Source: Candidatus Thiodiazotropha sp. (GTDB taxonomy: Bacteria; Pseudomonadota; Gammaproteobacteria; Chromatiales; Chromatiaceae). From it: 49,798 nucleotides of DNA. Location: NCBI GenBank assembly GCA_023838465.1, contig JAIVEQ010000004.1, positions 99,379 through 149,176 on the forward strand, in the 5' to 3' direction. This document shows positions 12,316 through 45,010 of the stretch, piece by piece. The notes beneath the pieces were generated by a model. The model worked only from the letters and a program-made list of their open reading frames with translations. It ran no database searches and was not told the origin of the DNA. The stretch's first letter is position 1. The number at the start of each line of letters is the position of its first letter. Position numbers and translations under genes: made by a program.

Positions 12316-13388
12316 GGCGTTTCTCCTTCCGTCACCAGCGCACCGGCTTCAAGGATATCGCCGTCCAGGCGAACCACTTTGACACCCTCAGAGAAACTGC
12401 TGATCAGTTCCACATGGGTGTCTCCCTCCAATCCGATTTCAATCGGTCGGTAGTGCAGCTGGCCCGACTCGATGAGTGCTACTTCAAAGCCCTCATCGCT
12501 TTCACGTAGTGCAGCAAAAGGTAGTTTCAATATGTTGTGACGATGATCCACAAGGATCTCTAAATCCAGTTGCTGTCCTAACAGCAGGGGTGGAGGTGTT
12601 TCACCCAGACCGAGGCGCACGCGAAAGGTGTTGAGTCGTTTATCCTTCTCACGTTCCACACTGGGACCTATCCAGCTGAGGGTCGATTGCCAGACCAGAC
12701 CGGGAAAGGCATCACAACGGATCGTCACCAGTTGACCCAGTTTCACCCGACCGCTGTCCACCGCATCCACATGGGCCTCGATCTCCCACTGGTCCAGGGC
12801 CACCAGGGAAAACAGTTTGGTCCCGGCTTCGACCCACTGCCCTACTTCAGTCGACTTCCCCACCACAACTGCCGCAAAAGGGGCACGTACCTGTTGCCAC
12901 TCCTGAGCCACTTCAGCAAGATGCAGATCGGCCTTTGCCACTTGCCAGGCAGCTGTCGCCGCCTCCCAATTGAGTTTCGCCTCCTCCAGCTTCTCTTGTG
13001 AGACAGCACCCTTATCCGCCAGCTTCTTCAGTCGCTGATAGCGCAGCTGCTCTTCGCGACGCCGTACCGCCTCCTGCTGCATATAGGCTTCCGCCCGTTG
13101 CAGACGCGCAGCGGCCGCCCGATTATCCATGGAGGCAAGTACCTGAGTGGCCTCAACCCGCTCACCCATAGCTGTAGCGACACGATTCACTTGACCGTCC
13201 ACCAGCGCAGTCAGGGTTACACTGCGATCATTGATCACTTCACCGGTTACCCTGATCAACAGTTCCAGATCACCTCGTTCAACAGTGACTGTCTCAACCT
13301 GCTGAGCCTGATCCATATAGCGGACAAAGCCACCAACCAGGATCAGCAGGCCTACGGTCAGAATCGTCATACTAAAAAGCAGATTCAT
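12312..13388 (-). CDS. periplasmic adaptor (HlyD/membrane-fusion protein)
   Basis: A 358-residue protein with one N-terminal membrane anchor (MTILTVGLLILVGGFVRYMD). It has a lipoyl half-domain around VTVERGDLELLIRVTGEV, a coiled-coil hairpin of about 75 residues (around 95-170, with many Glu, Arg, Ala and Leu), a second lipoyl half (VRAPFAAVVVGKSTEVGQWV) and beta-barrel domains. It links the MacB-like permease to an outer-membrane channel. No TolC gene is present nearby; the adjacent MipA-like protein is not a TolC homologue. Confidence 0.9.
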   Translation of the reverse strand: MNLLFSMTILTVGLLILVGGFVRYMDQAQQVETVTVERGDLELLIRVTGEVINDRSVTLTALVDGQVNRVATAMGERVEATQVLASMDNRAAAARLQRAEAYMQQEAVRRREEQLRYQRLKKLADKGAVSQEKLEEAKLNWEAATAAWQVAKADLHLAEVAQEWQQVRAPFAAVVVGKSTEVGQWVEAGTKLFSLVALDQWEIEAHVDAVDSGRVKLGQLVTIRCDAFPGLVWQSTLSWIGPSVEREKDKRLNTFRVRLGLGETPPPLLLGQQLDLEILVDHRHNILKLPFAALRESDEGFEVALIESGQLHYRPIEIGLEGDTHVELISSFSEGVKVVRLDGDILEAGALVTEGETP

Positions 13389-21431: not shown

Positions 21432-22160
21432 ATGTCAGCGATTGCCGTTCAACAGACACTCTGCACACCCACAAAAGTTCTCAAGCGTGACGGTTGCGAA
21501 GTTGATTTCGACACCAGCAAGATCCAACTCGCCATCTTCAAGGCCGGTCAGGCGAGCCAGGAGTTCGATAGCAGCGAGGCAAGACTGCTTTGCGCACAAG
21601 TGATCAAGGTTTTGACCCACACCGGTTATCGGGAGCAGACCCCCGGTATCGAGCGTATCCAGGATATCGTTGAGCAGGTATTGATCAGCGCCAACCATCT
21701 GAAGACGGCCCGCGCCTATATCGTCTACCGTGAACAGCATAAGAAGCTGCGTGAGGATCGCCGCACCCTGCTGGATGTCTCTGCCTCAGTGAGTGAATAT
21801 CTGCAGCGCTCCGACTGGCGGGTCTCTGCGAATGCCAACCAAGGTTACTCCCTGGGTGGTCTGATCCTTAACGCTTCAGGCAAGATGATAGCCAATTACT
21901 GGCTCAATCATGTCTACCCCCCCGAGATCGGCGAAGCTCACCGACAGGGTGACATCCATATTCATGACCTCGACATGTTGGCCGGTTATTGCGCCGGCTG
22001 GTCCCTCCGCACGTTGCTCCACGAAGGGCTGAACGGGGTGCCGGGAAAGGTCGAGTCGGGACCGCCAAAACATCTATCCAGCGCTGTCGGTCAGATAGTC
22101 AATTTCCTCGGCACCCTGCAGAACGAGTGGGCGGGTGCCCAGGCGTTCAGCTCATTCGAT
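21432..22160 (+). CDS. nrdD: anaerobic ribonucleoside-triphosphate reductase NrdD, part 1 (5' of inserted element)
   Basis: The first 243 codons of a class III ribonucleotide reductase. Residues about 14-105 form an ATP-cone (VLKRDGCEVDFDTSKIQLAI ... ARAYIVYREQHKKLR), the allosteric activity site. The catalytic barrel begins with LILNASGKMIANYWLN and HIHDLDMLAGYCAGW and breaks at NEWAGAQAFSSFD. A 283-bp element follows immediately, and unspliced reading meets a stop two codons later. The second half resumes in frame at 22444 with TYMAPFVRIDNLSY. AGGAGG precedes the ATG. Without removal of the element the enzyme would be truncated and inactive. Confidence 0.93.
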
Positions 22161-22443
22161 CGCTGAGCGCCAAGGAAGGCTGAAAGCCGAGGCGGTTAGT
22201 CCCCGGTAGGCGTGAGGCGAGACTGTAGACCCGTCGTGCCTTGCGCCAGAGGGGATGCAAAGCGAGCATCCGAACACGGCGTCCAGTCATTTGGGAACTG
22301 ACGGCGGAGTGGTCACGAGCTTGCGATGTGATCACGTAGTGTCAGTGACCAGGACCGTCCGGGGCACTAATAGGTTGTCAAAGATCGAGTGTCTTTTAGG
22401 CCTGGGACGCCTAAAAGACATCACGAGATCGAAGACTCACTTG
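22161..22443 (+). mobile_element. 283-bp structured insertion (intron-like), copy 1, inside nrdD
   Basis: A non-coding block beginning CGCTGAGCGCC and ending GACTCACTTG, in the nrdD sense orientation. It is repeated at 42339-42621 and 44175-44457 with the same length and no difference that I could see. Predicted stems include CGCC/GGCG (22168-71/22191-94), GGCT/AGCC (22178-81/22185-88), CGTCGTG/CACGGCG (22232-38/22275-81), GGATGC/GCATCC (22253-58/22266-71), GTGGTCAC/GTGATCAC (22309-16/22328-35), TAGTG/CACTA (22337-41/22365-69) and a perfect 12-bp hairpin (22390-22401/22409-22420). It has no target duplication and no clear terminal inverted repeats. I could not find the conserved P, Q, R, S core of group I introns or a group II domain V. 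Open frames inside it are not protein-like. Confidence 0.85.
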
Positions 22444-23760
22444 ACCTATATGGCCCCTTTTGTACGCATAGACAATCTCAGCTACTCACAGGTCTACCAG
22501 TATATTCAGGAGTTGATCTACAACCTCAATGTGCCCTCCCGCTGGGGTACCCAGACCCCTTTCACCAATCTGACCTTCGACTGGGTATGCCCACAGGATC
22601 TGCGCGAACAGATCCCCATCATCGCGGGTGAAGAGATGTCCTTCAGCTACGGTGATCTACAGACAGAGATGGACCTTATCAATCGCGCCTACATCGAGGT
22701 GATGACCGCAGGTGACGCTAAAGGCCGGGTCTTTACCTTTCCCATTCCGACCTACAACATCACCCCAGATTTTCCCTGGGAGAGCGAGAATGCTCAACGG
22801 CTGTTCAAGATGACTGCCAAGTATAGTCTGCCCTATTTCCAGAACTTTCTCAATTCAGAACTGAGCCCGAATATGGTGCGTTCCATGTGCTGTCGACTGC
22901 AACTTGACCTGCGTGAGTTGCTGAAACGGGGCAATGGTCTGTTCGGTTCAGCGGAGCAGACCGGTTCACTGGGTGTGGTCACCATCAACTGCGCCCGCCT
23001 GGGTTACCTCCACAATGGGAACGAAACCAACCTGATGGCACGCGTCGATGAACTGTTGCGACTGGCGTGTAACAGTCTGGAGATCAAAAGGAAGGTCATT
23101 CAACGCCACATGGATGCAGGACTTTTCCCCTATACCAAACGCTATCTTGGCACCTTGAGAAACCACTTCTCGACCATTGGCGTCAACGGCATCAATGAGA
23201 TGATCCGCAATTTCAGTAACGATAAATTCGATATCAGCCATACTGAAGGGCAGGCGCTCGCGACCCGTTTTCTCGACCATATTCGTCAACGTATGGTGGC
23301 CTTCCAGGAGGAAACCGGCAACCTCTACAATCTGGAGGCTACACCCGCAGAAGGGACCACCTACCGCTTCGCCAAAGAGGACCTCAAACGCTACCCCACG
23401 ATCTTTCAGGCCGGCACTCCGGACAAACCCTACTACACCAACTCCTCTCAGCTCCCGGTAGGCTTTACCGACGATCCCTTTGCCGCCCTGCAGCATCAGG
23501 AGCCACTACAGCGAAAATATACCGGCGGCACAGTACTTCACCTCTATATGAACGAGCGGATCAGCAGCACCGAAGCGTGTAAAAAACTGGTCAAACGCTC
23601 TCTGGAGAACTTCCGCATCCCCTATTTGACCATTACGCCGACGTTTTCCATCTGCCCGGTACACGGTTACCTCAGCGGAGAGCAGACATTCTGCCCCAAA
23701 TGCGACCAAGCACTCATCCAACAGAAACAACAGGAGATCAACCATGCACACACCCATTGA
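22444..23760 (+). CDS. nrdD: anaerobic ribonucleoside-triphosphate reductase NrdD, part 2 (3' of inserted element)
   Basis: The remaining 438 codons of NrdD; with part 1 the enzyme is 681 residues. It contains NVPSRWGTQTPFTNLTFDWV, the active-site cysteine region MVRSMCCRLQLDLREL, NCARLGYL, and a C-terminal zinc-type motif CPVHGYLSGEQTFCPKC (three Cys, one His). It ends soon after this motif, before the glycyl-radical segment that normally completes NrdD; that segment is the next gene. The open frame could be extended back to 22255, but that part lies inside the inserted element and is not NrdD-like. Confidence 0.93.
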   Translation, partial: TYMAPFVRIDNLSYSQVYQYIQELIYNLNVPSRWGTQTPFTNLTFDWVCPQDLREQIPIIAGEEMSFSYGDLQTEMDLINRAYIEVMTAGDAKGRVFTFPIPTYNITPDFPWESENAQRLFKMTAKYSLPYFQNFLNSELSPNMVRSMCCRLQLDLRELLKRGNGLFGSAEQTGSLGVVTINCARLGYLHNGNETNLMARVDELLRLACNSLEIKRKVIQRHMDAGLFPYTKRYLGTLRNHFSTIGVNGINEMIRNFSNDKFDISHTEGQALATRFLDHIRQRMVAFQEETGNLYNLEATPAEGTTYRFAKEDLKRYPTIFQAGTPDKPYYTNSSQLPVGFTDDPFAALQHQEPLQRKYTGGTVLHLYMNERISSTEACKKLVKRSLENFRIPYLTITPTFSICPVHGYLSGEQTFCPKCDQALIQQKQQEINHAHTH

Positions 23761-40845: not shown

Positions 40846-41639
40846 AAAAGGGGTCAGTACCCTTTAACCGATTTTTTCAGTACAGTCATACTTTATTAAC
40901 TATCTGAACAAGGACGTTCAAATACCAAGAAAACCCGTTTTTATTTGCAGGGCATCCCGGTTCATGTGATCAAATGTGGCAATAGCCGCCAACCGGTATT
41001 CTTTGAATCCGATGACTATCAGACCTATTTAGCTTGGTTAAAAGAGGGTGCGGACAAACACGGTTGTGCCATCCACGCCTATTGCTTAATGACCAACCAT
41101 GTCCATTTGCTTCTGACGCCGGAATCCCCGGAGGCTATCAGCAAAACTATACAGTTCGTAGGCCGTCAATACGTTCCCTATATCAATCATACCTACGGAA
41201 AATCCGGTACCTTGTGGGAAGGACACCACAAGGGCTGTGTGATCGATAGTGATGCATATCTGTTGACTTGTATGCGTTACATTGAACTCAATCCGGTTCG
41301 GGCGGGCATGGTACAAAAACCCATTGATTATCGTTGGTCCAGTTATCGGGGTAATGCGGCCCAATACACTGATAAACTGACTATTCCTCATGCCTTGTAT
41401 CGACAACTAGCCCAAGATCTCCTGTGCAGGCAGTTTGCCTATCGTGAATTGTTTCGTAATGCGCTAGAGGCAGATCAGGTCCACGCTATCCGTGTGGCAG
41501 TTCAAACTGGTACTCCCCTAGGTAATACTCGCTTTTGTGTGCAGATTGAAAAGCGGCTAAAGTGTAAAGTTGGCAAGGCCAGAAGAGGACGCCCGAAGGG
41601 AAGGAAAACGGTAAGAGAAAAAGGGTACTGACCCCTTTT
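40846..41639 (+). mobile_element. RAYT transposon with inverted ends
   Basis: The sequence AAAAGGGGTCAGTACCCTTT at 40846-40865 and its exact reverse complement at 41620-41639 bound a transposase gene. Each end is itself palindromic around GGGTCAGTACCC. This is the usual form of a REP-associated tyrosine transposase (RAYT) unit with REP-like ends. Confidence 0.75.
40945..41631 (+). CDS. REP-associated tyrosine transposase (HUH)
   Basis: A 228-residue transposase. The HUH motif is MTNHVHLLLTP, and the conserved GIPVHVIKCGNSRQPVFF and GTLWEGHHKGCVIDSD segments identify the RAYT family; the nucleophile tyrosine probably lies in FVGRQYVPYINH. Its 5' end is damaged: the first recognisable residues, PRKP, are in a different frame from RFYLQGIP, which fits a one-base loss, and ATA sits where ATG should be. 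TTG at 40945 is the earliest usable start in frame. It may be inactive. Confidence 0.8.
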   Translation: MQGIPVHVIKCGNSRQPVFFESDDYQTYLAWLKEGADKHGCAIHAYCLMTNHVHLLLTPESPEAISKTIQFVGRQYVPYINHTYGKSGTLWEGHHKGCVIDSDAYLLTCMRYIELNPVRAGMVQKPIDYRWSSYRGNAAQYTDKLTIPHALYRQLAQDLLCRQFAYRELFRNALEADQVHAIRVAVQTGTPLGNTRFCVQIEKRLKCKVGKARRGRPKGRKTVREKGY

Positions 41640-42338: not shown

Positions 42339-42621
42339 CAAGTGAGTCTTCGATCTCGTGATGTCTTTTAGGCGTCCCAGGCCTAAAAGACACTCGATCT
42401 TTGACAACCTATTAGTGCCCCGGACGGTCCTGGTCACTGACACTACGTGATCACATCGCAAGCTCGTGACCACTCCGCCGTCAGTTCCCAAATGACTGGA
42501 CGCCGTGTTCGGATGCTCGCTTTGCATCCCCTCTGGCGCAAGGCACGACGGGTCTACAGTCTCGCCTCACGCCTACCGGGGACTAACCGCCTCGGCTTTC
42601 AGCCTTCCTTGGCGCTCAGCG
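42339..42621 (-). mobile_element. 283-bp structured insertion, copy 2
   Basis: Same element as at 22161-22443 on the minus strand, with no difference that I could see. It is not in an intact gene. The left flank ends AATAAACA at 42331-42338, and the same eight bases occur four bases beyond the right end (42626-42633), which may be chance or a target repeat. The flanks of the other two copies show no such repeat. Confidence 0.85.
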
Positions 42622-43767: not shown

Positions 43768-45010
43768 TCACTGGATGTGACTTTTTTCAGGGTGAGGCAC
43801 AACCGTCGCGAGAAGTGTCTGAATTGCCTGCTCCAAGGCCCAGTTGAACTCGAGCGGACGGTTCATCATCAGAAAATGGTCCGCACCTTTCAAAATGATG
43901 GCATCGTAAGAAGGCATGTGCCTCCGGTTGGCCTCATAGTCGATGGGCCACAAATCTGCATTCACGGATATGACGGGAACATGGATATCTTCAAATATCT
44001 TGGCTGCATCTCCGGTGATGTACTGGGACATCATCTCTTCGATAGCGCTCAGAGCGACAGAACTCGGAGCGGAAGCCATGTCTGAGAGAATCCACTCTGC
44101 AAGTGTTGGATCGGTACCCGGTAAAATCATCGGTTTTACGAACTGACGACTGCCGTTTTTGAAGTCCGCTTTCACAAGTGAGTCTTCGATCTCGTGATGT
44201 CTTTTAGGCGTCCCAGGCCTAAAAGACACTCGATCTTTGACAACCTATTAGTGCCCCGGACGGTCCTGGTCACTGACACTACGTGATCACATCGCAAGCT
44301 CGTGACCACTCCGCCGTCAGTTCCCAAATGACTGGACGCCGTGTTCGGATGCTCGCTTTGCATCCCCTCTGGCGCAAGGCACGACGGGTCTACAGTCTCG
44401 CCTCACGCCTACCGGGGACTAACCGCCTCGGCTTTCAGCCTTCCTTGGCGCTCAGCGAGGGTGCCGCCATTTGCTCGTACTCCTCGGCGGTCATTGGGTA
44501 TTCGACATTTCCAAGTGTATCGACGCCTATCAGCCCTTTGACGCGCTTCGGCATAAGATGGGCTGCCTCAGCGATGACCGCCCCGCCCATGGAGTGCCCG
44601 ATGAGAATGACCTGTTCACTCTCTGTCGCCTCTACCACCGCCCGTACATCTTCCCCAAACGCTCTCATCGTATAACGTGATCAGCTCAAACCCGAATGGC
44701 CATGGCCAGCAAGATCCAGGGTGACAACCCGATATTTATTGGAGAACACAGGCCGTTGCATGCGCCAGTATCTGGCATCGCAACTCCACCCATGGACGAA
44801 CACGAGCGTTGTCTGGCCACTGCCGTAAATCTCGTACGAGATCGGCGTGCCATCTTTGGAAAGGGCTACCCCGGGCCATACTGTGTCCGCGTGAACTGCA
44901 CCACTGAACAACATTAAAGCCAAGACAGAGATGACTAATCCCGACAGCTTTTTCACAACCGCTGCGCAGTATTGTCCTTTCACTCTACCTGTGCTGCTTT
45001 TTATTTCTTT
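43768..45010 (-). pseudogene. secreted alpha/beta hydrolase interrupted by the 283-bp element
   Basis: Exons 45010-44458 and 44174-43768 together give 320 codons and an open frame except for one TGA. It has a signal peptide (VISVLALMLFSGAVHAD), the oxyanion region VFVHGWSCDARYWRMQ, the nucleophile elbow IGHSMGGAVIAEA and a histidine in GADHFLMM. The element falls between MAAP and KADFKNG, splitting a codon after its first base; removal gives TTG (Leu). An in-frame TGA (44683-44681) sits between GHGHSGLS and SRYTMRAFG, probably an old CGA (Arg). Two faults make it a likely pseudogene, unless the element is spliced and the stop is read through. Confidence 0.8.
44175..44457 (-). mobile_element. 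283-bp structured insertion, copy 3, inside hydrolase gene
   Basis: Same element as at 22161, in the sense orientation of the hydrolase. The preceding exon base is T, as in nrdD, and the following exon begins TG. Excision gives an exact frame. No target duplication is seen. Confidence 0.87.

Follow-up and report, generated by a model that had tools for sequence, protein, structure and literature searches.

A scarless 283-bp mobile element with a covarying whole-length fold and no recognised gene in Candidatus Thiodiazotropha and other Gammaproteobacteria

Group I and group II introns and HYER elements are structured, insert scarlessly and can lack a protein, and elements of the HEARO/IscB omega RNA type, which have a right-hand target motif, can lack an open reading frame (ORF). 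The Rfam model RF02033 matched 65% of HEARO nuclease 5' UTRs in the portion of the study cited here (PMC9755519), so a missing match is no proof of absence. For IS110 elements with their bridge RNA, the cited excerpt describes targets in which 11 positions around a CT core are set by RNA guides (PMC11208160). In the IS200/IS605 model, according to PMC6006769, a tetranucleotide in the target borders the left end, and the same role falls on the other side to the last four bases of the right end. For TnpA-REP, PMC8266576 describes cleavage at CT or CA, guided by GTAG. A separate abstract describes REP elements as palindromes of 20-40 bp. Here, we describe a family of mobile elements represented in a 49,798-nucleotide stretch of the Candidatus Thiodiazotropha genome (henceforth termed the window). 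Topic and motif searches of the accessible part of the open literature returned no description of it.

The window contains three copies of the element, at 22161-22443 (+), 42339-42621 (-) and 44175-44457 (-), which are 100% identical over 283 bp. Their left end, CGCTGAGCGCC, and right end, GACTCACTTG, are those given in an initial annotation of this DNA, which had also proposed counting the copies genome-wide. The genome holds 79 complete copies, each with its own flanks and none differing from the window copy, although this identity is an upper bound because the assembly of short repeats may smooth single differences. Genome-wide, 81 left ends (80 exact, one with a single mismatch at a contig edge) and 83 right ends (all exact) were found. 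Copy 1 lies in sense orientation inside nrdD, and the piece that follows it matches the Pfam family NRDD (3.3e-131), showing that the gene is interrupted. Copy 3 sits in sense, as first reported, inside a 209-aa joined frame, but the name 'hydrolase' given to this frame gained no confirmation, since its tested piece had no Pfam match. Exact removal of the element restores both frames, in agreement with the initial annotation. Copy 2 lies outside long reading frames, its longest joined frame being 94 aa. An ATG within the element opens a 501-aa frame (22255-23760, +) that runs in frame into the remaining nrdD, which makes a fused product conceivable.

Insertion is scarless and occurs three bases after a C. 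Identity between left and right flanks is near chance, with 29, 7 and 2 of the 79 copies agreeing at 1, 2 and 3 bases and none beyond. The left flank of the nrdD site is present in 14 of 21 other genomes and the site is empty to the base in all 14, the nearest being 98% identical there (G011). Such an exact empty site means that insertion adds precisely 283 bases, with no duplication and no loss. The lack of a target duplication noted at the outset is thus borne out, as is the mobile element inserting without duplication that had been offered as one of two options. Read on the element strand, C occupies position -4 in 79/79 own sites, C is found at -5 in only 2, and T precedes the element in 58. 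At copy 1 the left target tetranucleotide is CGAT (22157-22160, +) with its invariant C at -4, and the element's own final tetranucleotide, CTTG (22440-22443, +), again has C at -4. Among relatives, 187 left-end matches, less six with another start, merged from 181 into 163 distinct sites; these carry C at -4 in 162 cases, C at -5 in 4 and T before the element in 62. The T that the initial annotation had taken as resembling an intron boundary is therefore no rule, whereas the C at -4 is invariant. The right flank of the own sites gave no clear signal and no conserved right-hand target motif. The right end of the element, (A/G/T)CTTG, repeats the left-target pattern, and 157 of 159 distinct full elements longer than 200 nt (79 own and 80 others) end in A/G/T-C-T-(T/A)-(G/A), the remaining two being cut at contig edges. 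The same rule appears in three distant subfamilies, whose starts, set by eye from comparing copies, are TGACTGAG (G170), GAAGGAGC (G181) and CGCTGCTAACC (G140), two of them with quite different first bases. For these genomes 17 loci were retrieved, of which 14 supplied 15 rows (three divergent or edge copies were omitted, and one row carries a misassigned right end); C stands at -4 in 15/15 and a base other than C at -5 in 14/15.

The element is predicted to fold along nearly its whole length. The minimum free energy of its RNA fold is -121.1 kcal/mol, compared to -97.5 (sd 4.8) for 200 dinucleotide shuffles (z = -4.9). For 15 diverse members, RNAalifold returned a structure of 61 pairs in 11 helices, extending from element base 2 to 7 bases before the end. 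In this structure 94.7% of cells are paired versus 36-42% in slid controls, a comparison that favours the structure because it was derived from the same alignment. Changes on both sides are seen in 28 of the 61 pairs, a value reached in none of 500 shuffles, a control that the relatedness of the sequences weakens; by both controls the number of double-change pairs is high. Alongside this covariation over the whole length, conserved unpaired stretches are apparent. G.U-type cells outnumber A.C-type cells by 74 to 8, identifying the folded strand as the one reading CGCT...CTTG. The left-end helix P1 (22162-22200, +) comprises 10 pairs with compensatory changes in three, and a G.U pair at its columns 2-40 is kept in 14/15 members. 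The long-range helix P2 (22201-22364, +; 22201-22207 with 22358-22364) encloses a branched core, and the right-end helix (22377-22436, +) contains the perfect 12-bp hairpin mentioned in the initial annotation, which we place at 22390-22420.

We assigned each copy an orientation relative to the longer frame that crosses the empty site, provided this frame reached 150 aa. The own copies divide into 31 sense, 32 antisense and 16 outside such frames, and the relatives, mostly from the Sedimenticola symbiont, into 21, 23 and 15, with nine more dropped for short flanks. Without a sense bias, splicing is neither needed nor suggested. Pfam searches with one one-sided piece each for 60 of the 63 long-frame cases matched 44 host genes. 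These are, in our reading, mostly accessory in both orientations and include chemoreceptors, flagellar hook proteins, efflux systems, sensors and polysaccharide genes. Genes for PEP carboxylase, SufBD and glutamate-cysteine ligase are among the antisense hosts, and sense copies sit in nrdD and in flagellar and regulator genes. The element strand coincides with the G-rich strand in 48/77 own copies (p 0.04, mostly from 20-kb stretches) and in 45/65 relatives (p 0.003), while own copies with 3-kb flanks gave a non-significant 41/71 (p 0.24). The GC skew behind these counts is coherent within contigs. Any preference for the lagging-strand template is mild at best.

Relatives of about 220-310 nt occur in clam symbionts, in Thiorhodococcus and on a phage contig. 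A left-end pattern gave at least 110 matches in named genomes, and among the matches listed are Ca. Thiodiazotropha, Ca. Sedimenticola endophacoides, Solemya symbionts, Thiorhodococcus minor and gammaproteobacterial MAGs; the record of T. minor DSM 11518, a culturable host, has at least one left end. A covariance-model search, one of the follow-ups first proposed, used a model (R1) built from the last 83 nt, i.e., the right end; with rough E-values up to 0.001, it matched 40 of 369 genomes of the class and 33 of 271 genera. Among the best 30 R1 loci, one per genome, 12 also match a left-end profile at E below 0.05; of the others, some lie at contig edges and some have a different left end, and a few (L344, L346, L348) resemble right ends alone. 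Many genomes, two single-contig ones included, carry several copies, and in the Sedimenticola symbiont 51 distinct sites share one identical 300-nt sequence, among 60 sites with 300-nt sequences. In one locus a complete copy is followed directly by a second that lacks the first third (L223, 1439-1934). The phage contig carries the element at 12487-12630 of locus L229, which also encodes a phage terminase and a primase, and is a possible route between hosts. The own element had no match in plasmid and phage collections. Two distant subfamilies had none among plasmids except one weak partial, a similarity of one of them to a Ca. Methylocalor plasmid (OZ026885.1, 13398-13484).

No form of the element that carries an ORF was found among left-right end pairs up to 5 kb apart, and no pair exceeds 309 nt. 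With overlapping loci counted more than once, 180 of 184 end pairs lie 260-309 nt apart, the other four being two internal deletions, a pair containing a stretch of Ns and a pair at the edge of a contig. Unpaired ends comprise 95 left and 30 right, and since 117 of these 125 are no more than 330 nt away from the edge of a contig or locus, a long form might be hidden in assembly gaps. The longest ATG-start frames of family members range from 37 to 95 aa with no shared length, and in copy 1 neither of two roughly 60-aa frames gave a Pfam match at E up to 1. Nor did a common helper emerge: none of Y1, IscB and reverse transcriptase is universal among the carriers searched, although missing matches leave room for a diverged or different enzyme. 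Y1_Tnp matched in 30 of 39 carrier genomes, namely 12 of 12 in one set, 8 of 11 in a second and 10 of 16 in a third, the last chosen from the 40 R1 genomes mainly by copy number and including G044. Three of the nine carriers without a Y1 match belong to a collection with no contigs shorter than 3 kb. The nine also include G075 (100% complete, about 10 contigs) and G068 (99% complete, 11 matches), whose collection states no contig-size limit. RRXRR (IscB) was detected in 1 of 16 carriers searched and RVT_1 reverse transcriptase in 9 of 16. Two genomes (G057, G058) gave no match to any of the three, in a collection that omits contigs under 3 kb.

Our preferred explanation, held tentatively and at somewhat less than even probability, is that the element moves as a folded single strand with an enzyme supplied in trans. 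The strand would fold at the replication fork, where an endonuclease would recognise the end structures and make its left cut behind D-C-N-N-N and its right cut behind D-C-T-T-G, D being any base but C. The donor would rejoin cleanly, and the excised strand or circle would be pasted after another D-C-N-N-N; the moving strand may be DNA or RNA. By analogy, this anatomy, with scarless insertion, a left target and right end whose tetranucleotides follow one rule, end hairpins and a weak strand bias, appears most to resemble the single-strand transposition of IS200/IS605 elements such as IS608 and ISDra2, which share the end hairpins and perhaps a slight lagging-strand preference. Unlike them, the element has no ORF, one invariant left base rather than four and a fold that spans its whole length; P1 starts at base 2, and no guide tetranucleotide could be made out by eye 5' of the end hairpin. 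Because the geometry is that of single-strand transposition while membership fails on the enzyme, we describe the element as one that would work like a peel-and-paste element. Against this explanation count the nine carriers in which Y1, the enzyme of the IS200/IS605 mechanism, went undetected, and the weakness of the strand bias. In addition, conservation of the fold throughout the interior exceeds what a DNA element mobilised in trans should need, which keeps an RNA-based mechanism alive.

Such a mechanism would rest on a mobile RNA that works without protein or as part of an RNP: transcribed from the element itself, it would serve as catalyst or guide, be freed at both ends and join into DNA, with host enzymes then copying it. 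We consider this doubtful, though a genuine possibility. The covariation and conserved unpaired stretches speak for it, as do the conserved G.U pair in P1 and the failure to detect each of the three usual drivers in some or most carriers. Two internal-deletion forms with both ends intact, of 115 nt (L130, 2845-2959) and 174 nt (L185, 1113-1286), were each seen once, a rarity that would fit a need for the interior in cis; the junction string of L130 also occurs inside one complete element (L343). On the other side, half of the gene-borne copies are antisense to their gene, the fold begins so close to the left end that little room is left for a promoter of its own, and reverse transcriptase went undetected in 7 of 16 carriers. 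Single-stranded DNA also tolerates G.T pairs, which further counts against an RNA. Moreover, Rfam searches of the window and 20 other loci at gathering and permissive thresholds gave no match to the element, whether group I, group II, HEARO or other; the by-matches were a sub-threshold Guanidine-I hit overlapping copy 1, a neighbouring tRNA and a sub-threshold RsmW hit beside an element. A bolder claim strikes us as rather unlikely: an RNA of about 300 nt, distinct from group I and group II and carrying no protein, would mobilise itself by insertion into DNA after C-NNN and would have spread through the Gammaproteobacteria, as either a natural ribozyme or an RNA-guided recombinase RNA of a new class.

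Another alternative, a non-autonomous IS200/IS605 or REP element moved by a Y1/RAYT transposase of the host, we judge unlikely. Scarless insertion, end hairpins and the tetranucleotide rule fit this proposal, as does the Y1 match in most carriers. The genome's only Y1_Tnp match, a REP-type gene at 40945-41631 (+) that scores below the NCBIfam cut-off, adjoins copies 2 and 3, 0.7 kb from the former. However, it is flanked by inverted repeats of about 20 bp, AAAGGGGTCAGTACCCTTT-like, that look like its own and are unrelated to the element, and the nine carriers without a Y1 match, G075 and G068 among them, again weigh against the proposal. REP elements of TnpA-REP (RAYT) are alike in their many copies, lack of an ORF and proposed host-encoded single-strand nuclease. 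They differ in that our element is a 283-nt branched fold instead of the short palindrome of the excerpted descriptions, has most of its copies inside reading frames and would be cut three bases after C. Cleavage at CT or CA, as given in PMC8266576, does not fit the insertion sites, where C at -4 is the sole fixed base.

A HEARO/omega-type guide RNA carried by the element, with a nuclease acting from elsewhere, would account for a structured, mobile and scarlessly inserted sequence of about 300 nt without an ORF, and RF02033 does miss part of the known HEARO RNAs. We nevertheless consider it very unlikely, since RF02033 did not match, RRXRR went undetected in 15 of 16 carriers, and the target rule lies on the left flank with no conserved right-hand motif. 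IS110 also joins a structured RNA to recombination of target and donor, yet our element fixes a single target base compared to the 11 guided positions of the excerpted account. A self-splicing mobile intron, the other option initially offered, is extremely unlikely: the restored frames and the copies lying in sense within nrdD and within flagellar and regulator genes suit it, but group I and group II introns and HYER differ from this 283-nt element, which shows equal orientations in own copies and relatives, lies outside long frames in 16 cases and has no Rfam intron match at E up to 5 for copy 1, where no group I core or group II domain V had been seen, or up to 0.5 for relatives. An autonomous transposon with the same ends, named alongside equal orientations as what would speak against an intron, was not found.

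The combination of a covarying whole-length fold, no gene found and no standard driver in all carriers searched is why this element family matters: the discovery of either a transposition enzyme of wide distribution or a catalytic RNA still lies ahead. Small carriers such as G075 (1.4 Mb) and G068 (1.8 Mb) make the question of the driver testable. The family has reached about one in ten genomes of the class in our sample, and in two hosts or more a recent amplification has produced tens of identical copies, with 79 in the genome studied here and 51 in the clam symbiont.
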